Source: Schwartzia sp. (in: firmicutes) (GTDB lineage: Bacteria; Bacillota; Negativicutes; Selenomonadales; Selenomonadaceae). Taken from it: a DNA stretch of 43,058 bases. Both the position numbers and the translations under genes were made by a program. The stretch is from NCBI GenBank assembly GCA_017444395.1, contig JAFSWT010000133.1, positions 1 through 43,058 on the forward strand. Direction: 5' to 3'. Below are positions 32,349-41,935 of this stretch, in pieces (positions within the stretch are counted from its first letter, which is position 1; the number at the start of each line of letters is the position of its first letter). The notes beneath the pieces were generated by a model. It did no database searches. It was not told where the DNA came from and saw nothing but the letters and a program-made list of their open reading frames with translations.

Positions 32349-33731
32349 GTGGAAAAGGAATTGCCTGTCCGCGAGGGCGAAATATACGAGCTCACGGTCG
32401 AACGGCTGGGGCTGGGAGGCGAAGGCGTTGCCCGCCGGGAGGGATTTACCGTTTTTGTGCCGGGGGCGCTGCCGGGGGAAAGGGTTCGGGCCCGGATTGT
32501 CAAACGGAAGAAGAGCTACGCCACGGCAGTTGTCGAGGAACAGCTCACGCGGAGCCCGGACCGCGTTTCGCCCCGCTGCCCGCTCTATGAAGCGTGCGGC
32601 GGCTGCCAGCTGCAGCATCTCGCGTATCCGGCGCAGCTTGATGCCAAACGGCAGCAGGTCGCGGACGATTTGATTCACATCGGCCGCTTGCCGGAGGTTC
32701 CGGTCCTTCCAACCCTGGGCGCGGACGATCCCTGGAACTACCGCAACAAGGTCCAGTTCCCGGTGGGCCGGGAGGGCGGCGAAATCATCATTGGCTGCTT
32801 TGCCCGGGGCACGCATACCATCATTGATACCGAAAACTGCCATATCCAGGCGGTGGGCAACAACGACATCGTCAACGCCGTGCGCGACGCGGTGAAGGAG
32901 TTCCGCGTTCCCGTTTACGACGAGGACCGCCATACCGGCGTCCTGCGCCATGTGGTGGGCCGCGCCGGGCAGGACGGCAGCCTGATGATCGTCCTCGTCA
33001 CCGCCGTCCGCGAGCTCCGGCAGGCCAAAGGCATCGTCGCCTTCCTGCGCCGCCGTCTGCCAAAGCTGGTCAGCGTCCAGCAGAATATCCAGACGTATCG
33101 CAACAACGTCATCCTGGGTCGCGAAACCGTGCTGCTCTGGGGGAAAGACACCATCCGTGACCGGATCGGCCCCCTGTCGTTTCGCATCTCACCGCGGTCC
33201 TTTTTCCAGGTCAATACCCGGCAGGCGGAGGTCCTTTACCGGAAAGCGCTGGAATACGCCGGCCTCACGGGGAAGGAAACCGTAATCGACGCCTACTGCG
33301 GCACGGGGACCATCTCGCTCTTCCTGGCCCAGCGGGCGCGAAAGGTCTATGGTATCGAGATCGTCAAGCCGGCCATTCTCGACGCCCGCCGCAACGCCCG
33401 GGAGAACCACGTCAAAAACGCCGAGTTCATCGTCGGCGACGCCACGGCGGTCATGCCGCAGCTCTATCGGAGCGGCATTCGCGCCGATGTCATCGTGACC
33501 GACCCGCCCCGCGCCGGTTGCACGTCGTTGGTGTTGCAGACATTCGCCGCCATGCGCCCCCGGCGTATCGTATACGTCTCCTGTAACCCGGCGACCCTGG
33601 CCCGGGACCTGGCCATCCTCGACGAGCTCGGTTACCGGACCATCGAAGTGCAGCCGGTGGATATGTTCCCCATGACCAGCGCCGTCGAAGTTTGCACGAA
33701 ACTTATCAGGGCGGATGCGGCGGACGGCTAG
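32349..33731 (+). CDS. rlmD: 23S rRNA (uracil-5-)-methyltransferase, RlmD/RlmCD family
   Basis: 460 residues from a GTG with GGGAGGA upstream. An N-terminal TRAM domain (about 5-65) is followed by iron-sulphur cysteines C77, C83, C86 and C164, then the SAM motif DAYCGTGTISL near 315 and the nucleophile in SCNPATLARDL. The C-terminus (VEVCTKLIRADAADG) is normal in length. Its TAG overlaps the recombinase stop in CTAG, so this 3' end is probably the prophage attachment site. Confidence 0.93.
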   Translation: MEKELPVREGEIYELTVERLGLGGEGVARREGFTVFVPGALPGERVRARIVKRKKSYATAVVEEQLTRSPDRVSPRCPLYEACGGCQLQHLAYPAQLDAKRQQVADDLIHIGRLPEVPVLPTLGADDPWNYRNKVQFPVGREGGEIIIGCFARGTHTIIDTENCHIQAVGNNDIVNAVRDAVKEFRVPVYDEDRHTGVLRHVVGRAGQDGSLMIVLVTAVRELRQAKGIVAFLRRRLPKLVSVQQNIQTYRNNVILGRETVLLWGKDTIRDRIGPLSFRISPRSFFQVNTRQAEVLYRKALEYAGLTGKETVIDAYCGTGTISLFLAQRARKVYGIEIVKPAILDARRNARENHVKNAEFIVGDATAVMPQLYRSGIRADVIVTDPPRAGCTSLVLQTFAAMRPRRIVYVSCNPATLARDLAILDELGYRTIEVQPVDMFPMTSAVEVCTKLIRADAADG

Positions 33732-35167
33732 AAATTCCAAGCGATTTCCAGGCGGCCGGAGGCGTGCACGGTGATCTTTTGGATCAGAGAGTGCAAGATC
33801 TTTCTCTGCGTGTCAGGAACCCTGACGGTGGCGAAATCTTTTATGTTGGCGCGGGCTTCTGCCAGTGTCAGCCTGGGCTTTGACAGGGGCGCTGCCAGAT
33901 TCGTCAGCGTGGTTTGGAGCGTTTCCCGCTCGTTCTGGAGCTTCTGCGTTCTCGTGCTGATGTCGTCGAGGGAAATCGTCCCGATTTGGTAGAGGTCAAT
34001 GATGCGCGGAATCTGATGGTCGATTTCGTCAAGGCGCCGTTGTATGGCTTGCCGCTCTTCATCGCGGCGGGCCATTTCCGGTTCGTGACGGGCCGCCTCG
34101 CTGAGGTCGGTGAGGACTCGATTGCTTGCCGATGTCATCGCCTTTATCTCGCCCGTGATGCGGCGGTCTATTTTTTCCACGGGGAAGGCCGGGCTCATGC
34201 AGAGCGGGTCAATGACGCGCCGCTTGTTCGTCTTTGCCCGGCTATAGCAGTAATAGTATGGATAATACCGGCGATTCGTACCGTGTCCACTGTAGTTCCC
34301 TTTCGTCGTGTACATCGCGCCGCAATTCCCGCAGTATAGGAGCCCCGTCAGCAGGTGATGCTGGCGGAAAGGCGGCTCCTTGCTGGCGCTGATGCGGGAG
34401 CGGTCAGCGAGGAGCAGCCCGGCTCGGGAGAAGGCTTCCTGGTCGATGATGGGATCATGCTGCCCCTGGTACTGACGCCCCTCCCATTGGATACGGCCGA
34501 CATAGAGCGGCGTAGACAGGATAGAGCGGATCAGCGTCGGATTCAGCGGGCGCCCGTACTTTTTCGAGAGCGCGGTCACGATATGATGGATTGCCGTACC
34601 GCTCAGGAATTCATCGTAAACTTCCCGCACAACGACGGCCTCCACCGGATTGACGACCAGGCGCCCGTCAGTGTAATCGTATCCGAAAGGCTTCCAGCCG
34701 CCGCCGTGCCAGAGGCCGGATTTCGCCCTCTCGACGCGTCCCATTGCCGTCCGCTCTTTTATCTGCTCCCGCTCAAGCTGGGCGAAGACGGACAGGATCC
34801 CGATCATGGCCCGGCCAAACGGCGACGCCGTATCGAAGTTCTCCAGCATCGAGACGAATGCGACGCCGTTCTTGAGAAAGATGTCCTCGATGATGTGCAA
34901 AGTGTCTTTCTGCGACCGGGAAAGCCGGTCCAACTTGTAAACGAGAACGCAATCAATGCTCCCGCCCTGGATGCAGCCGAAAAGGCGCTGGAGGGCCGGA
35001 CGCTCCATATTCGATCCGGAAAAGCCCGGGTCCATGAAAACGCCGGTGATTACCCAGCCCTTTGCCTTGCAGTAAGCTGTCAGGCGATCCTCCTGGGCCT
35101 CGATCGAGTATCCCTCGATGGCCTGCTCCTGCGTGGATACGCGGATGTACAGCGCTGTCCGGTTCAT
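33728..35167 (-). CDS. Large serine recombinase (phage integrase)
   Basis: 479 residues from the ATG at 35167, which has GGAGGTGATACC directly before it. The resolvase domain starts TALYIRVSTQEQ with the catalytic serine S11, then YKLDRLSRSQKDT. A recombinase domain, a zinc ribbon (LLYCGNCGAMY, later cysteines in YYYCYS and LCMSP) and a long coiled coil (about 350-430) follow. This is the layout of phage integrases that cut attP/attB with a two-base crossover. Its stop overlaps that of rlmD. Confidence 0.95.
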   Translation of the reverse strand: MNRTALYIRVSTQEQAIEGYSIEAQEDRLTAYCKAKGWVITGVFMDPGFSGSNMERPALQRLFGCIQGGSIDCVLVYKLDRLSRSQKDTLHIIEDIFLKNGVAFVSMLENFDTASPFGRAMIGILSVFAQLEREQIKERTAMGRVERAKSGLWHGGGWKPFGYDYTDGRLVVNPVEAVVVREVYDEFLSGTAIHHIVTALSKKYGRPLNPTLIRSILSTPLYVGRIQWEGRQYQGQHDPIIDQEAFSRAGLLLADRSRISASKEPPFRQHHLLTGLLYCGNCGAMYTTKGNYSGHGTNRRYYPYYYCYSRAKTNKRRVIDPLCMSPAFPVEKIDRRITGEIKAMTSASNRVLTDLSEAARHEPEMARRDEERQAIQRRLDEIDHQIPRIIDLYQIGTISLDDISTRTQKLQNERETLQTTLTNLAAPLSKPRLTLAEARANIKDFATVRVPDTQRKILHSLIQKITVHASGRLEIAWNF

Positions 35168-35179
35168 GGTATCACCTCC

Positions 35180-35204
35180 GCCGCCCCTCGGGGCGGCTTT
35201 TTTT
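35180..35204 (+). terminator. Plus-directed terminator in the recombinase leader
   Basis: GCCGCCCC/GGGGCGGC hairpin (35180-35197) followed by seven T on the plus strand. It faces against the recombinase mRNA, in whose leader the same hairpin sits just before the ribosome site. It could stop antisense transcription or mask the site. Confidence 0.65.
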
Positions 35205-35268
35205 ATTTGCCGGTAACTTGCGCCCGACATAAATATCGGACGCAAAAGTCAGTACTGACGCGGTTTTT

Positions 35269-35337: not shown

Positions 35338-35357
35338 GTTATGCCTCCGTTTTATCG

Positions 35358-35438
35358 ATAGAGTGATTATTTGTAAAAATTTCACCCTATTGATAGTATA
35401 GAGTGATTTCGTAAAGGTATCAATCGGATAGAGTGATT
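35358..35438 (-). promoter_or_regulatory. Recombinase promoter with repeated operators
   Basis: On the minus strand TTGATA (35423-35418) and TATACT (35400-35395) are 17 bp apart. The 11-mer ATAGAGTGATT occurs at 35358, 35398 and 35428, offsets of 40 and 30 bp, and an inverted near-copy (TTCACCCTAT) is at 35381-35390. Copies overlap the -10 and flank the -35, so a repressor binding them would shut the promoter. Confidence 0.72.
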
Positions 35439-35470
35439 TTTGGACGAATTTTCATCCTGTTAAATTTCCG

Positions 35471-35526
35471 CCGCCCCTCCCGGGCGGATTTTTTATTGTC
35501 CGAAATCCGCAAGCGGTTGCGGGTTT
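35471..35526. repeat. Two-hairpin module B at the 3' end of the NYN gene
   Basis: A CCGCCC/GGGCGG hairpin (35471-35487) with a T-rich tail on the plus strand is followed by a second hairpin, AAATCCGCAA-N4-TTGCGGGTTT (35503-35526). The same pair occurs at 36456-36512, after the repressor gene. Each lies just past the stop of a minus-strand gene. Confidence 0.75.
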
Positions 35527-35538
35527 ATTTGCCCCTAC

Positions 35539-36207
35539 CTATCGTTTGCAGGAAGGATTAAAACGGGAATCGCAAGTCCGCAAGCCGTCAATGTGCTCGA
35601 ATAAATCCGGCTTAATCGGATTGAAAAGAGGATCAAGAATAAAATCAATTCCTTCCCGACGGGCCAGCTTGGCTGCCGCGACAAAATCGCTGTCGCCGGA
35701 AATAAGGACAATCTGATCGACCTGCTTCTTGTAAGCCAATGAAGCTATATCCAAGCCAATCTTCATATCTACGCCTTTTTGGTCGACTTCCAGCATAAAA
35801 TCCTTATCGGTGACATCAGAAAAAGCCCTGGAGCCGCTGCACAGTTTACGCAGCGTGGTCTCTCGCAGGGAAAAATGGGCCTGCTCATCCGCCAGCTTCC
35901 CAAATCGTATCGCGAATTTTCGACGCTTCTTTAGCTCGTTAATGAAAGCGTGCATCCATCGGTAAAGCTCGGTCTTTGCATAATCAATTTGAGAGTGCAA
36001 AAAGGGATGGAAAACCTTCTTTTCCATCGGGAGACAATCATAATAAAAAATACGGTATAGCTCGCTGTCAACGCCTTTCCGATGATGCAAATGGCGGCGG
36101 CAATAATCCTGAAGCTCCTGCGCTCGTTCTTCCGCTGTTTTTTCGCCAAGCATGATCTGGGCGCGGCGTCTATAAAAGCCTCCGTCGATTAAGATTGCAG
36201 TTTTCAT
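35539..36207 (-). CDS. NYN-domain protein (PIN-like, DUF88/LabA type)
   Basis: 222 residues from the ATG at 36207, with AGGAGG 6 bp upstream. Starts MKTAILIDGGFY with the first catalytic aspartate D8; further acidic residues are in DMKIGLDIASLA and the motif LISGDSDFVAAAKLA. This is the NYN fold, related to PIN ribonucleases. A phage role is not known; RNA cleavage is inferred. Base composition is much more AT-rich than the host. It has a consensus promoter, a structured leader and a repeat array upstream. Confidence 0.85.
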   Translation of the reverse strand: MKTAILIDGGFYRRRAQIMLGEKTAEERAQELQDYCRRHLHHRKGVDSELYRIFYYDCLPMEKKVFHPFLHSQIDYAKTELYRWMHAFINELKKRRKFAIRFGKLADEQAHFSLRETTLRKLCSGSRAFSDVTDKDFMLEVDQKGVDMKIGLDIASLAYKKQVDQIVLISGDSDFVAAAKLARREGIDFILDPLFNPIKPDLFEHIDGLRTCDSRFNPSCKR

Positions 36208-36455: not shown

Positions 36456-36512
36456 CCGCCCTCCCGGGCGGCTTTTTTTGTTTGGCTGAAATCCGCAAGC
36501 GATTGCGGATTT
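36456..36512. repeat. Two-hairpin module C at the 3' end of the repressor gene
   Basis: CCGCCC-TCCC-GGGCGG (36456-36471) with seven T on the plus strand, then a perfect hairpin AAATCCGCAA-GCGA-TTGCGGATTT (36489-36512) that reaches the repressor stop codon. It matches module B at 35471-35526. Confidence 0.78.
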
Positions 36513-37149
36513 AGACTTTGCGGCGGAGCTCGATGACGTCGCCGATGATCTGGAGGGGGAGGGACAGGACATCGTCGTTGGAGAAGAAGTGGGGCTCGTA
36601 GACGTCGGGGTTGTAGGCGACAAGGGTGACGCCTTCGCGGGACTTGATGACGCGCTTTAAGGTGGCGGACTCGCGGCCGATCAGGACGGCGGCGGTGCGG
36701 CCGGATTCGACGTCATCAGCGCGGCGAAGGATGACGGTATCGCCCTCGACGTATTTGGGCTCCATGGAGCGGCCACGAACGCGCAGCGCGAAGAATTCAC
36801 CGGGCCAATCCTGGGGAATTTCTTCCCAGTCCTCGATGTCCTCGATGGCCTCGATGGGGATCCCGGCGACGATGGAACCGTAAACAGGGATGCGCTTGCC
36901 ATGCAACGGTTGCGTGGCGAGGCCCGCAGGGGTGCTGGCGGGAAGGGTAATGGGTTGGTCTTCGATAATGTCACTTTTTTTTATACCAAAATGCTCTGAC
37001 AACCGCTCGATTGCTCCCATTCGCGGAACTTTTATGCCGAGCTCCCATGTTGAAACCGCTTTATCTGTAACACCTGCGATTTGGGCAAGCTCCTTCTGGG
37101 ATAATTCATGCTTTATTCGCAAACGTCTAATATTATCACCAATCGACAT
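36511..37149 (-). CDS. LexA/CI-like phage repressor with S24 peptidase domain
   Basis: 212 residues from the ATG at 37149, preceded by GGGGGGTGAGC. An XRE-type helix-turn-helix (about 5-58, with LSQKELAQIAGVTDKAVSTW) is joined to an S24 domain. The cleavable Ala-Gly is A95-G96 (GSIVAGIPI), the catalytic serine S128 (RGRSMEP) and lysine K165 (SATLKRV). RecA-stimulated self-cleavage and SOS induction are therefore expected. Divergent from the Cro-like gene, as in lambda-type switches. Confidence 0.93.
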   Translation of the reverse strand: MSIGDNIRRLRIKHELSQKELAQIAGVTDKAVSTWELGIKVPRMGAIERLSEHFGIKKSDIIEDQPITLPASTPAGLATQPLHGKRIPVYGSIVAGIPIEAIEDIEDWEEIPQDWPGEFFALRVRGRSMEPKYVEGDTVILRRADDVESGRTAAVLIGRESATLKRVIKSREGVTLVAYNPDVYEPHFFSNDDVLSLPLQIIGDVIELRRKV

Positions 37150-37177
37150 AATGCTCACCCCCCTAACAATTGATACT

Positions 37178-37269
37178 ATTATAGTAAACCTAAAGTAGAA
37201 AAAAATCAACCTTTAAAAAAGGAAATTCTACTTTTAGGGGTTGACATTCTACCAAAAGTAGATTATCAT
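37178..37269. promoter_or_regulatory. Divergent repressor/Cro promoters and operators
   Basis: Plus strand: TTGACA (37241-37246) and TATCAT (37264-37269), 17 bp apart, drive the Cro-like gene. Inside the spacer is TCTAC-N5-GTAGA (37248-37262). Half sites lie at 37195-37199 and 37227-37231. Minus strand: TATAAT (37183-37178) for the repressor has no good -35, so it may need activation. Confidence 0.8.
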
Positions 37270-37296
37270 GAGTAAAGAAAAGGAGGTGGGGCGTGA

Positions 37297-37488
37297 ATGA
37301 AGTTAAGTCTGAGAGCCGCAAGAGTTGATGCGAATTTGACGCAGGAAGACATGGCCAAGGCATTGAATATTCATGTGCAGACGTATCGTAAATTAGAGGA
37401 AAGGCCTGATACTGCAACAATCGAGCAAGCAAAAATCATTTCAGAGCGTGTAGGAAGGTCATATAACGAAATTTTTTTTGCGTCCTAA
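37297..37488 (+). CDS. Cro-like XRE-family regulator
   Basis: 63 residues, essentially one helix-turn-helix (about 5-58: LRAARVDANLTQEDMAKALNIHVQTYRKLE). AAAGGAGG lies 10 bp before the ATG. It is the first gene rightward of the repressor and starts the early operon, so a Cro role is likely. Another TCTAC-N5-GTAGA operator lies just after its stop. Confidence 0.85.
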   Translation: MKLSLRAARVDANLTQEDMAKALNIHVQTYRKLEERPDTATIEQAKIISERVGRSYNEIFFAS

Positions 37489-37562: not shown

Positions 37563-37796
37563 ATGCGGTCATGTTTTATCAGGATTGAGGTGCCGGAAGG
37601 CGAAGTAAAGCAGATTTTGGATGAGCTGAACAAGGCGCAGGAGAAAATCTATGAGTGCTACAACAGATTGGAAGGACTCGGCGTGGTGACGGTTATAAAA
37701 AAGGACGCCGCCGAGAATGGCGACGCCAAGTCCGAGGAGCTTTCAAAGGCGCTGGAGCAGAAGCTCGAACACCTTAGTGACCTCGATTACGTTTAA
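37563..37796 (+). CDS. Phage early protein of unknown function, 77 aa
   Basis: GGAAGGAGGGG precedes the ATG. Residues about 12-45 are predicted helical and charged (EVKQILDELNKAQEKIYECYNRLEGLG), then VVTVIKK and an acidic helix. No family recognised. Its stop overlaps the stop of the convergent small gene at 37793-37972 in TTAA. The terminator of that gene lies antisense within its coding region. Confidence 0.75.
   Translation: MRSCFIRIEVPEGEVKQILDELNKAQEKIYECYNRLEGLGVVTVIKKDAAENGDAKSEELSKALEQKLEHLSDLDYV
37695..37727 (-). terminator. Terminator of minus-strand unit 1
   Basis: On the minus strand a GC-rich hairpin (GGCGTCGCC with GGCGGCGTCC, loop about 6 nt, 37727-37703) is followed by TTTTTTAT. 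It lies 66 bp beyond the stop of the small gene at 37793 and inside the opposite early gene. Confidence 0.75.
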
Positions 37797-37972
37797 TGTG
37801 CTTGTTCGTTTTTCATCTTGTCGTATTCAGCGAGTACATGGATGGTGTTTTTGATGGAAATGATATCAGCGGTCCAGATCATGCGCTGTTGATCATTTTC
37901 AGGAGGAGCGTCGGGGTCGATTCCGAATTTCGCAAAGACGCGCCGTTCCAGTTCATTGTAGTCGATGTTCAT
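37793..37972 (-). CDS. Counter-transcribed small protein 1, 59 aa
   Basis: Opens at the ATG at 37972, directly behind repeat module 1, which supplies an extended -10 and AAAGGAGGTGA. The product is MNIDYNELERRVFAKFGIDP and on: acidic, soluble, helical, no cysteine, ending NEQAH. No family recognised. Its start resembles that of small protein 3 (MNI, then ELE and VF). It is easily missed because it is under 60 codons. Confidence 0.8.
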   Translation of the reverse strand: MNIDYNELERRVFAKFGIDPDAPPENDQQRMIWTADIISIKNTIHVLAEYDKMKNEQAH

Positions 37973-37973
37973 G

Positions 37974-38020
37974 GTGTCACCTCCTTTCGGGTGACATTAT
38001 ACCACGGGCCGCGGGCGGCG
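37974..38020 (-). repeat. 47-bp promoter/ribosome-site module, copy 1
   Basis: Minus strand: extended -10 TGGTATAAT (TATAAT 38001-37996), a dyad TGTCACC-N8-GGTGACA covering the start point, and an AAGGAGGTGA ribosome site 5-6 bp from the ATG. Copies 1, 3 and 4 are identical over 47 bp; copy 2 has one change. Copies 1 and 3 also share the next 14 bp, the plus-gene ribosome site. Confidence 0.9.
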
Positions 38021-38028
38021 GGGAGGTG

Positions 38029-38202
38029 ATGGGGTTGGAGAGCAAGGAAAGAGCGACGACGATCGAGGAGGCCGAAGCGCGTATCATAAAGGCTTTGGAA
38101 GGTGTGGACTGCCAAACAGCGGAGTATGCGCTGGCCCGGGCGTCAAACGATTTGCGAGGGTTTGCATTCGTTCATGCAGACGAGAAAGCCCGCGAGGAAT
38201 AG
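38029..38202 (+). CDS. Phage early protein of unknown function, 57 aa
   Basis: ATG at 38029 with GGGGAGGTG immediately before it. Helical, charged protein (TTIEEAEARIIKALEGVDCQ) of the type common in phage early operons; no family named. A 13-bp hairpin (38188-38222) overlaps its end. It diverges from small protein 1 across repeat copy 1. Confidence 0.7.
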   Translation: MGLESKERATTIEEAEARIIKALEGVDCQTAEYALARASNDLRGFAFVHADEKAREE

Positions 38203-38222
38203 CGGCAACTATTTTCGCGGGC
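38188..38222 (-). terminator. Terminator-like hairpin of minus-strand unit 2
   Basis: GCCCGCGA/TCGCGGGC outer stem and AATAG/CTATT inner stem around a 6-nt loop. It lies 12 bp past the stop of small protein 2; on the minus strand TTTCT follows. It may also end plus-strand transcripts partly. Confidence 0.62.
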
Positions 38223-38233
38223 GAGGACAAGAA

Positions 38234-38446
38234 TCATTCTTCGATGTGGATGGCCTGGAGTTCGCTTCCGGCAAAGCAGAGCGTCGTTTTGTTGTCGCTG
38301 ATGAGCGAGTAGGAACACCTGACGTCAATAGGAAGGTATGGATCCGTCGGAGTCAGTGCCTTTCCCTCCCCCGTCAGGACGTTAGTGGATTTGTATGGTT
38401 CGATCACGATGGGCGGACGTCCTTTTAAGTAGACAGTAGCTTTCAT
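38234..38446 (-). CDS. Counter-transcribed small protein 2, 70 aa
   Basis: ATG at 38446, directly behind repeat copy 2. Predicted mostly beta: MKATVYLKGRPPIVIEPYKS, then a central TP-rich loop and CSYSLISDNKTTLCFAGSEL near the C-terminus. It shares the pattern SY(S/T)(L/I)(I/V)S...F(A/S)G..LQ.I with small protein 4, so the two are paralogues. No known family recognised. Confidence 0.82.
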   Translation of the reverse strand: MKATVYLKGRPPIVIEPYKSTNVLTGEGKALTPTDPYLPIDVRCSYSLISDNKTTLCFAGSELQAIHIEE

Positions 38447-38447
38447 G

Positions 38448-38494
38448 GTGTCACCTCCTTTCCGGTGACATTATACCACGGGCCGCGGGCGGCG
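38448..38494 (-). repeat. 47-bp promoter/ribosome-site module, copy 2
   Basis: Same module with a single substitution in the dyad spacer; both dyad arms, the extended -10 (TATAAT 38475-38470) and the ribosome site are intact. Confidence 0.9.
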
Positions 38495-38514
38495 GTTGAA
38501 GAGGAGGCGCAGCG

Positions 38515-38778
38515 ATGGCAAAGATGAAGACGGAATGGCAAAAGGCGGTTGAGAAAGAGGCGAGCGTGGCGTTGACGGCGGGATTTCCGCCGGAGCGGAA
38601 GGAGATGGTAGCGGCGGCGTTGGTTGAGACGATGAAGGAGATGGGATGCTCTTATGGGGAGGCCTATGAGGTTTTGGGATGGCTGCGGGAGCATTTACGC
38701 CGGAAAGCGGAAAACCTCGTGAAGGCCGCAAGCCTCCACGAGGTCGATGAGTTCCCGGCTTTTCCAAAAGTTAGTTGA
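38515..38778 (+). CDS. Phage early protein of unknown function, 87 aa
   Basis: GAGGAGG lies 7 bp before the ATG. Helical protein: MAKMKTEWQKAVEKEASVAL, then PPERKEMVAAALVETMKEMG and GEAYEVLGWLREHLRRKAE. No family recognised. It converges with small protein 3 and overlaps it by 8 bp. A 12-bp hairpin near its 3' end acts on the opposite strand. Confidence 0.75.
   Translation: MAKMKTEWQKAVEKEASVALTAGFPPERKEMVAAALVETMKEMGCSYGEAYEVLGWLREHLRRKAENLVKAASLHEVDEFPAFPKVS
38714..38744 (-). terminator. Terminator of minus-strand unit 3
   Basis: ACCTCGTG/CACGAGGT with an inner AGGC/GCCT pair; on the minus strand it runs into TTTTCC. It lies 27 bp beyond the stop of small protein 3, inside the opposite coding region. 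Confidence 0.65.
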
Positions 38779-39025
38779 TGTGCTGCGCGTCGTACGAGGA
38801 GTGCAAGTTCTCGATGATGGTCAGAAGTTCTCGGAGCATCGCGTCAGTGTCCATTTTGCCGATGTCATGGCGCTTTTCGAGAATCCGGATGGCCAGAAGC
38901 CCCAAGTGATCCCGCAGGACAAGGGCGGGAGCTGGGAGGGAGTGAGAGTAGCTGTCTTTGGCCTTTTCGTAAGAGACATACGCAGAGAATACCAATGACT
39001 CCAATTCGTCAGGGGAAATGTTCAT
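38771..39025 (-). CDS. Counter-transcribed small protein 3, 84 aa
   Basis: ATG at 39025, directly behind repeat copy 3. Helical: MNISPDELESLVFSAYVSYE, then LRDHLGLLAIRILEKRHD and a final helix LLTIIENLHSSYDAQHIN. The N-terminal MNI..ELE..VF pattern recalls small protein 1. No family recognised. Confidence 0.82.
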   Translation of the reverse strand: MNISPDELESLVFSAYVSYEKAKDSYSHSLPAPALVLRDHLGLLAIRILEKRHDIGKMDTDAMLRELLTIIENLHSSYDAQHIN

Positions 39026-39026
39026 G

Positions 39027-39073
39027 GTGTCACCTCCTTTCGGGTGACATTATACCACGGGCCGCGGGCGGCG
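39027..39073 (-). repeat. 47-bp promoter/ribosome-site module, copy 3
   Basis: Identical to copies 1 and 4 (TATAAT 39054-39049); identity with copy 1 extends 14 bp further into the ribosome site and start of the divergent plus-strand gene. Confidence 0.9.
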
Positions 39074-39081
39074 GGGAGGTG

Positions 39082-39312
39082 ATGGGGATGGATGAGCTGG
39101 TGTTCCGGGTAAGGAGTTCGCTGAATGATTGGAGGGTCACGCAGGGTATCATTGACAGAATATCCGCAATTTACAGCGGGAACTGCAAATTGCGGATAGA
39201 GGTTGATGTTACTGCGAATCAGGTGTTGCTGTCGTCGATGGCCGGGAGTTCGATGAGTTGTAATGATGCACCGGAGAAGGCATATACCATGCCAGCGGAG
39301 ACGATGGTGTAG
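39082..39312 (+). CDS. Phage early protein of unknown function, 76 aa
   Basis: ATG at 39082 with GGGGAGGTG just before it, as in the 57-aa gene after copy 1. The first 45 residues (MGMDELVFRVRSSLNDWRVT and on) look like an ordinary soluble protein. The last 31 codons overlap small protein 4 on the other strand, and the hairpin at 39161-39198 lies inside. The true length may have been altered by the adjoining unit. Confidence 0.55.
   Translation: MGMDELVFRVRSSLNDWRVTQGIIDRISAIYSGNCKLRIEVDVTANQVLLSSMAGSSMSCNDAPEKAYTMPAETMV
39161..39198 (-). terminator. Hairpin at the 3' end of minus-strand unit 4
   Basis: Perfect 12-bp arms (39161-39172 with 39187-39198) and a 14-nt loop, 21 bp past the stop of small protein 4. 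It has no T run. The stem contains ATCCGCAA/TTGCGGAT, the same core as the hairpins after the NYN and repressor genes. Confidence 0.6.
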
Positions 39313-39458
39313 GAGTGGTCGGGGTAGATGGCAATTTCTTTCATCCTGGCGCCCCGGAGTATAACGGGGGGACAGCCTTCTTTGCAATCGCGGATTTCGC
39401 TTACATTTGTCAAGGTAATGGAGTCCGCAAGGCCGTCAATGAATACTTCAATGTTCAT
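39219..39458 (-). CDS. Counter-transcribed small protein 4, 79 aa
   Basis: ATG at 39458 behind repeat copy 4. Beta-rich: MNIEVFIDGLADSITLTNVS, a CKEGC pair near residue 25, then EIAIYPDHSYTIVSAGMVYA and FSGASLQLIEL. The C-terminal half aligns with small protein 2. No known family recognised. Confidence 0.82.
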   Translation of the reverse strand: MNIEVFIDGLADSITLTNVSEIRDCKEGCPPVILRGARMKEIAIYPDHSYTIVSAGMVYAFSGASLQLIELPAIDDSNT

Positions 39459-39462
39459 GTTT

Positions 39463-39509
39463 GTGTCACCTCCTTTCGGGTGACATTATACCACGGGCCG
39501 CGGGCGGCG
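39463..39509 (-). repeat. 47-bp promoter/ribosome-site module, copy 4
   Basis: Identical to copies 1 and 3 (TATAAT 39490-39485); the distance from module to ATG is 4 bp, slightly longer than in the others (1 bp). Confidence 0.9.
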
Positions 39510-39548: not shown

Positions 39549-40190
39549 ATGAGCATGCTGGGTTTGAGAGTTAAAAAGAAGAAGCTGTCAAAGACGACGA
39601 AGGAGATCATCGCCGACGCGATCCGGGAAGGAAAGAACGCGTATGAGATCGCGTCTTTGGTGAAGCTCACGGATGATGATGTGCGGTATGCGGCGAAGGC
39701 GCTCCACATGACCCGGGCGCTGAACGCGAACGAGGGCTGCGTGACGCGGCAGGCGACTACGGAGGAGATGGGGCTGGATGAGCTCAAGGAAAAACTGGGA
39801 ATCGGTCCGGATGAGGACGTGGAGTTCATGGAGGCGCCGAAGCCGCCGGAGGTCGTGAGCAAGGAGCCGGAGCCGGAGAAGCCCCGGAAGCGAGGACGGA
39901 AGCCGAAAGCGGCTGTCGAGGCGAAGGAGGCCGCCGAAGCGGAAGCACCCCGGACACGGAGGAAGGCAGGGCCAAAGCCGCGGCCGAAGAAGGAGCGGCA
40001 GGTAGTAGTGCCGGGAGAGGCGCTGCTGGGGACGATCCGGATCCTGGAAGGCATCGGCAATGATATGTTTGCCGAGGGCGCCCAGGATGAGGAAAGCGGG
40101 ACGTGGCTGGGGTTCACGTACGATCAGGTGGTGACGACGCTTAAACTGCTGCGGACGATAGACAGAATTTGCCAGCGGTTGAGCCATTAG
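39549..40190 (+). CDS. Phage protein with AT-hook-like linker, 213 aa
   Basis: AGGAGG lies 8 bp before the ATG. The N-terminal part (about 13-60) looks like a helix-turn-helix (KEIIADAIREGKNAYEIASL, DDVRYAAKALHMTRAL). A linker rich in P, E, K and A (about 95-155) contains RKRGRKPK, an AT-hook-like motif, and GPKPRPKK. A helical C-terminal domain follows. DNA binding is inferred. No family recognised. Confidence 0.78.
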   Translation: MSMLGLRVKKKKLSKTTKEIIADAIREGKNAYEIASLVKLTDDDVRYAAKALHMTRALNANEGCVTRQATTEEMGLDELKEKLGIGPDEDVEFMEAPKPPEVVSKEPEPEKPRKRGRKPKAAVEAKEAAEAEAPRTRRKAGPKPRPKKERQVVVPGEALLGTIRILEGIGNDMFAEGAQDEESGTWLGFTYDQVVTTLKLLRTIDRICQRLSH

Positions 40191-41780: not shown

Positions 41781-41889
41781 GCCGGACCGACGGAAGCAGC
41801 CGCGTCTCTGCCATGTATGCCGGGCAAAGTTTGGCGGAAACGCGCAGCGAGGGAAGCGATTGGCCGGGATAAGAGGGGTGAAGGTGTGA
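41743..41889 (+). CDS. Small zinc-finger-like phage protein, 48 aa
   Basis: ATG at 41743 with GGAGGGC upstream. MNVCKCGRIIPHEPDRRKQP followed by CHVC gives a CxC...CxxC zinc-binding pattern, then a basic tail (AKFGGNAQRGKRLAG). This is a common kind of small phage protein. The end of the gene is inside a 39-bp tandem duplication. Confidence 0.65.
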   Translation: MNVCKCGRIIPHEPDRRKQPRLCHVCRAKFGGNAQRGKRLAGIRGVKV

Positions 41890-41935
41890 GCGATTCGATT
41901 GGCCGGGATGAGAGGGGCGAAAGTGTGAGCGATTT
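41858..41935 (+). repeat. 39-bp tandem duplication over a ribosome site and start codon
   Basis: Units 41858-41896 and 41897-41935 agree at 35 of 39 positions. Each carries a GAGGGG(T/C)GAA ribosome site and a GTG start, so the next gene has two start regions 13 codons apart. Confidence 0.85.

Follow-up and report, generated by a model that had tools for sequence, protein, structure and literature searches.

The stretch of DNA analysed here (the window, 43,058 nucleotides) consists of host chromosome followed by a prophage, which runs from about 33.7 kb to the contig end. At the prophage edge lies a serine integrase gene (33728-35170, minus strand), which abuts the 3' end of an rlmD-like gene. 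It is followed on the same strand by the genes for an NYN-domain protein (35539-36207) and a CI/LexA-like repressor with HTH_3 and Peptidase_S24 domains (36511-37149), and on the plus strand by a Cro-like HTH gene (37297-37488), the first of the early genes.

A 47-bp module with the core GTGTCACC...GGCGGCG was found four times by repeat search, at 37974-38020, 38448-38494, 39027-39073 and 39463-39509, always on the minus strand and with a single mismatch, located in the loop of copy 2; the positions and the differing base given in the earlier note were exact. Identical repeats of 47 bp make a chance origin a non-issue. Read on the minus strand, each copy presents the extended -10 sequence TGGTATAAT (in 4/4 copies), a TGTCACC-N8-GGTGACA dyad and AAGGAGGTGA, followed by the ATG of a small gene. 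In copy 1 these parts are an upstream GC-rich block (38005-38020), the extended -10 (37996-38004), the 5' arm TGTCACC (37990-37996), a loop between the arms that contains AAGGA, and the 3' arm GGTGACA, which is also the Shine-Dalgarno (SD) sequence (37975-37981). Copy 4 has a longer spacer between SD and ATG (CACAAACATG), and the likeness between copies 1 and 3 spans 75 bp, reaching the next plus-strand SD. No further copy was detected in the window with up to 8 mismatches allowed, nor was a 30-bp module core detected elsewhere in the source genome with up to 3.

The genes behind the modules, termed m1 (37793-37972, 59 aa), m2 (38234-38446, 70 aa), m3 (38771-39025, 84 aa) and m4 (39219-39458, 79 aa), all lie on the minus strand, which is the strand of CI. 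They alternate with plus-strand early genes of 77 aa (37563-37796, the stop of which overlaps the m1 stop), 57 aa (38029-38202), 87 aa (38515-38778), 76 aa (39082-39312, the 3' end of which overlaps m4) and 213 aa (39549-40190). Re-examination confirmed the minus-strand succession of -10, dyad, SD and ATG, the reading frames of 59, 70, 84 and 79 codons, and the presence after each module of a plus-strand frame with its own SD (starts at 38029, 38515, 39082 and 39549), all of which had been described earlier. The one strong terminator-like hairpin detected behind the minus-strand genes, with a T-run, follows m1 (37704-37727, minus strand). The 213-aa early protein had no match in phages or in other Selenomonadaceae genomes.

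Searches of m1-m4 against Pfam, PHROG and PDB returned no convincing match. For m1 there was no significant relative (a weak phrog_25725 match had an E value of 0.0035), and its likeness to m3 was limited to MNI..ELE..VF; m3 had no match in IMG/VR. AlphaFold models built on single sequences of the window cargo reached pLDDT values of 45 and 60, too weak to use. Relatives were found in other Selenomonadaceae. In a genome of another genus (G135), homologues of m2 and m4 (65% each) both stand behind variant modules and oppose early genes. Two early genes are conserved there too, convergent with the same partners: the homologue of 38029-38202 (52%) is convergent with the m2 homologue and that of 39082-39312 (54%) overlaps the m4 homologue, as in the window, although the two pairs are arranged in a different order. 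The module of the m2 homologue in G135 is without a hairpin. By codon position, the differences from the G135 homologues number 14/17/30 for m2 and 20/14/42 for m4; coding support for m1 and m3 is weaker. It is possible that m4 is a distant paralogue of m2, a relation seen only in the multiple alignment, and pairwise BLASTP of the two gave no match. Homologues of m3 in G147 (44%) and G046 (39%) both lie behind SD hairpins, and in the G046 phage TATAATCAYC...GGAGRTGATTATA modules precede three counter-strand genes. At the G147 homologue (L016:10240-10300) the hairpin is a perfect SD hairpin, ACCTCCTT/AAGGAGGT, with no recognisable -10 adjoining. The NYN-domain prophage protein has relatives in the G019 phage (69% identity) and in IMG/VR contig L102 (57%), both of which carry hairpin cassettes. 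No empty insertion site was found for the cassettes of the window phage.

The earlier note had proposed that the 47-bp core be sought in related prophages and the genes behind it compared. The exact core was absent from IMG/VR and, but for one chance match to a host promoter, from 189 Selenomonadaceae genomes, and a 26-base core was absent from 84,980 genomes. On these searches the 47-bp sequence is private to the window phage, and what spreads, with varying genes behind it, appears to be the design. Since the core was absent elsewhere, the sequence search was replaced by a search for the architecture, namely a -10, an SD-complementary arm and an SD, which was independent of the module sequence. 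In the 189 Selenomonadaceae genomes the pattern TATAAT-N(0-3)-CACC-N(3-14)-GGAGGTGA gave 14 sites (the window's own four and ten in seven other genomes), against one for the reversed pattern used as control; without the arm requirement the pattern was scattered through 127 genomes. The Selenomonadaceae loci that were opened proved to be prophage early regions in which the driven genes oppose early genes, and G019 showed a threefold alternation of the two. In G007, more than 12 copies of a sequence like TATAATARTARGTGRCAGGAGGTGA were present on many contigs and probably mark the start of a mobile element.

In IMG/VR, TATAATCACC-N-AGGAGGTGA, with the CACC arm, occurred in 33 contigs, and its counterpart with a permuted CCAC arm in one. 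The counts of the first RY scan represent a sample, among the matches listed. The same cassette design was present in phages of Veillonella, Clostridia, Bacilli and others, the named hosts of the matches including Veillonella, Staphylococcus, Peptoniphilus, Tissierella, Ruminococcus, Cytobacillus and Fusobacteria, among others. With genes called by a simple script rather than a trained gene finder, a gene could be assigned to 77 viral sites; the neighbours on both sides were on the opposite strand at 61 of them and co-directional at one. Among 25 matches in genome contigs with an assigned gene, the respective figures were 13 and 0.

Behind this design the cargo varies widely. The 137 distinct cargo proteins fall into 84 sequence families, some of which, including DUF2513, YjcQ and an ACLLGxWVxL family, occur behind differing modules, and two streptococcal phages carry different cargo proteins behind a similar upstream module. 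A second class of module, without a hairpin, was observed in streptococcal-type phages (L176, L228, L230, L243 and others), where CTGCTATAATRTGRGCAGAAAGGAGGTGATT is nearly constant ahead of unrelated genes. Pfam matched only 9 families in 87 cargo proteins (DUF2513, DUF2188, YjcQ, KTSC and the like), and one or two of the scanned proteins resemble defence components (PD-Lambda-3_B, PDC-S16). The literature searched yielded no paper on DUF2513 prophage genes or on IS10-type protection. In Listeria phage B025, terL leads straight into the portal SD, whereas in Listeria phage LP-P111 a DUF2513-type cassette lies between the terL stop and the portal SD; the Listeria cassette is thus inserted relative to a related phage.

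Prophage morons are independently expressed genes that are inserted between phage genes and vary among relatives, and an antisense placement to lytic genes has been described as characteristic of them (PMC2629481, PMC7067206). The cassettes can be assigned to the morons on three grounds: unrelated cargo behind near-identical modules, related cargo behind different modules, and presence or absence in Listeria phages. Cassettes of the window type likewise lie between phage genes, vary in cargo and face against early genes; they differ in forming serial arrays of three or four in which a compact start module is repeated and the cargo alternates with early genes, and in having a predicted SD-sequestering hairpin inside the promoter. 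The comparison bears out the description of the repeated unit as a portable expression cassette, the same architecture standing before unrelated genes in many phages, and that of its genes as accessory cargo, exchanged behind a shared design. The statement that the alternation was not known from described phages held only in part: deposited streptococcal phages alternate alike, with genes annotated as hypothetical proteins, as fits morons.

The dyad, listed earlier as a single feature of the module, is present, and probably acts at the RNA level as a clamp on the SD. When two arm bases were left free in the search, pairing with the SD was kept in 45 of 47 unique sites (AC 12, AT 30, GC 2, GT 1), the remaining two (TC) pairing in another register. 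The sites represent at least 13 upstream contexts; this count is rough, since AT-rich sequences were grouped by single linkage, and many of the sites are relatives of one another. Combinations of arm and SD bases were C-G 31, U.G 34, U-A 7 and C.A 1; wobble pairing is frequent on the cassette strand and the C.A mismatch rare, although the table by itself is only suggestive because ribosome binding limits which bases the SD side can have. Loop length varies inside one phage (6 and 9 in G123; 7, 7 and 10 in G046; 9, 9 and 10 in G019). Non-homologous stems, such as CTTATCC/GGATAAG and, ahead of several genes, CAACTTATCC/GGATAAGT, occupy the same position. A stem reaching at least 3 pairs into the -10 was found at 16 of 34 sites, compared with 3 of 95 SDs taken as background.

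The mean probability of the SD being unpaired was noisy, and the opening energy was used instead. For a set of sites chosen by arm pattern, the predicted cost of opening the SD was 12.1 kcal/mol in read-through RNA, 3.4 kcal/mol in the predicted own RNA and 9.1 kcal/mol with shuffled arms, and it was predicted to be higher in read-through than in own RNA at 125/125 sites. The difference made by shuffling the arm was 3 kcal/mol on average and at most 1 kcal/mol for three of the four window copies; in the window modules half of the SD is inside the loop. An arm-neutral scan gave strong folding in only 9 of 32 sites.

Such a dyad might alternatively be a DNA operator over the -10 and the start site, by which one phage regulator would repress the four promoters jointly. 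The site is symmetric, rightly placed and present in several near-identical copies per phage, and in cluster K mycobacteriophages 17-bp inverted repeats beside start-associated sequences have been read as protein sites (PMC3203893). We nevertheless regard an operator as unlikely: the half-site spacing differs inside one phage (G123, G046, G019), almost every deviation in the arm stays compatible with wobble pairing on one strand, which is not expected from DNA symmetry, and the presumed CI operators (37150-37297) look different by eye (CTACTnnnAGTAG). The variable loops and stems, the arm changes that keep pairing and the near absence of the permuted arm fit an RNA hairpin rather than a DNA operator. 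That the cassettes are morons whose dyad has no role of its own, or is a relic of the perfect SD and of an ancestral promoter, appears quite unlikely. Modules without a hairpin do share the counter-strand placement, and their existence means that a cassette can do without gating; against an incidental dyad stand the permuted arm (1 against 33 contigs), the complementarity conserved in those 13 or more contexts, and the occupation of the same place by non-homologous stems. It is highly improbable that the hairpin works in the plus-strand early mRNA, where, by hiding the complement of the cargo SD, it would keep the SD of the following early gene from being blocked. That complement does lie roughly 20-50 nt ahead of the next early SD, but the U.G pair, common on the cassette strand, corresponds on the plus strand to C.A, a mismatch.

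We therefore favour, as the likelier account though not a secure one, a moron-type counter-strand cassette in which the dyad acts as an RNA clamp on the SD. Each unit sets a small cargo gene, co-oriented with CI, against the early operon and would supply it with an extended -10 promoter for its sole use and a near-leaderless start. The cargo would likely be on during lysogeny, while the early operon is off, and firing of the early operon would oppose it by antisense transcription. The DNA of the -10 and discriminator encodes the 5' arm complementary to the SD, for which reason the clamp should form on read-through RNA only. Transcription usually starts 6-9 nt past the -10; with the arm in the discriminator, the cassette's own RNA would begin just past the arm and be translated, whereas RNA entering from upstream would carry the arm and have its SD folded away. 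Why the cargo strand should need insulation is not obvious.

In phage T4, longer transcripts of gene e and of I-TevI fold a hairpin over the ribosome site; its 5' strand comes from the promoter DNA and is missing from self-initiated RNA (PMC3014915); a title cited in that paper groups the mobE leader with these two. The four window copies and the sites in seven other Selenomonadaceae genomes share with them a promoter that encodes the 5' strand of an SD hairpin. The T4 cases, however, concern late promoters of a lytic phage in sense orientation within an operon, whereas the cassettes have predicted sigma-A-type promoters in temperate phages and counter-strand, unrelated cargo; by this analogy the cassette would work like T4 e but is not a member of the T4 e type. 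In cluster K mycobacteriophages, SAS/ESAS are short repeats with an SD at the starts of many small non-structural genes, some with inverted repeats, the changes in which do not support RNA pairing (PMC3203893). They comprise a conserved GGGATAGGAGCCC at operon-strand starts; the cassettes have a different sequence on the opposite strand, and only in the cassettes do the inverted-repeat changes support RNA pairing.

More tentatively, these sites may belong to a wide class of phage cassettes (Negativicutes, Clostridia, Bacilli and others) in which one element of ~35 bp combines promoter, anti-SD arm and SD. A gene placed in any operon and in either orientation would then be translated from its own start only, a built-in insulator making cargo exchange safe. 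Architecture, not homology, offers a sequence handle on many uncharacterised phage genes that are probably expressed in the lysogen. If the clamp works, temperate phages would be using a T4-like translational gate as an insulator, and the module would provide a compact genetic part.

Other repeats were also observed in the prophage. Terminator-like CCGCCC..GGGCGG-T7 blocks occur three times close to the genes for the integrase, the NYN protein and CI (35181-35216, 35471-35527 and 36456-36513), two of them followed by ATCCGCAAGCG(G/A)TTGCGG. Upstream of the integrase gene, at 35357-35461, a repeated ATAGAGTGATT may represent operator or att-associated iterons, and a 39-bp tandem duplication (85%) at 41849-41926 directly precedes an HTH gene.
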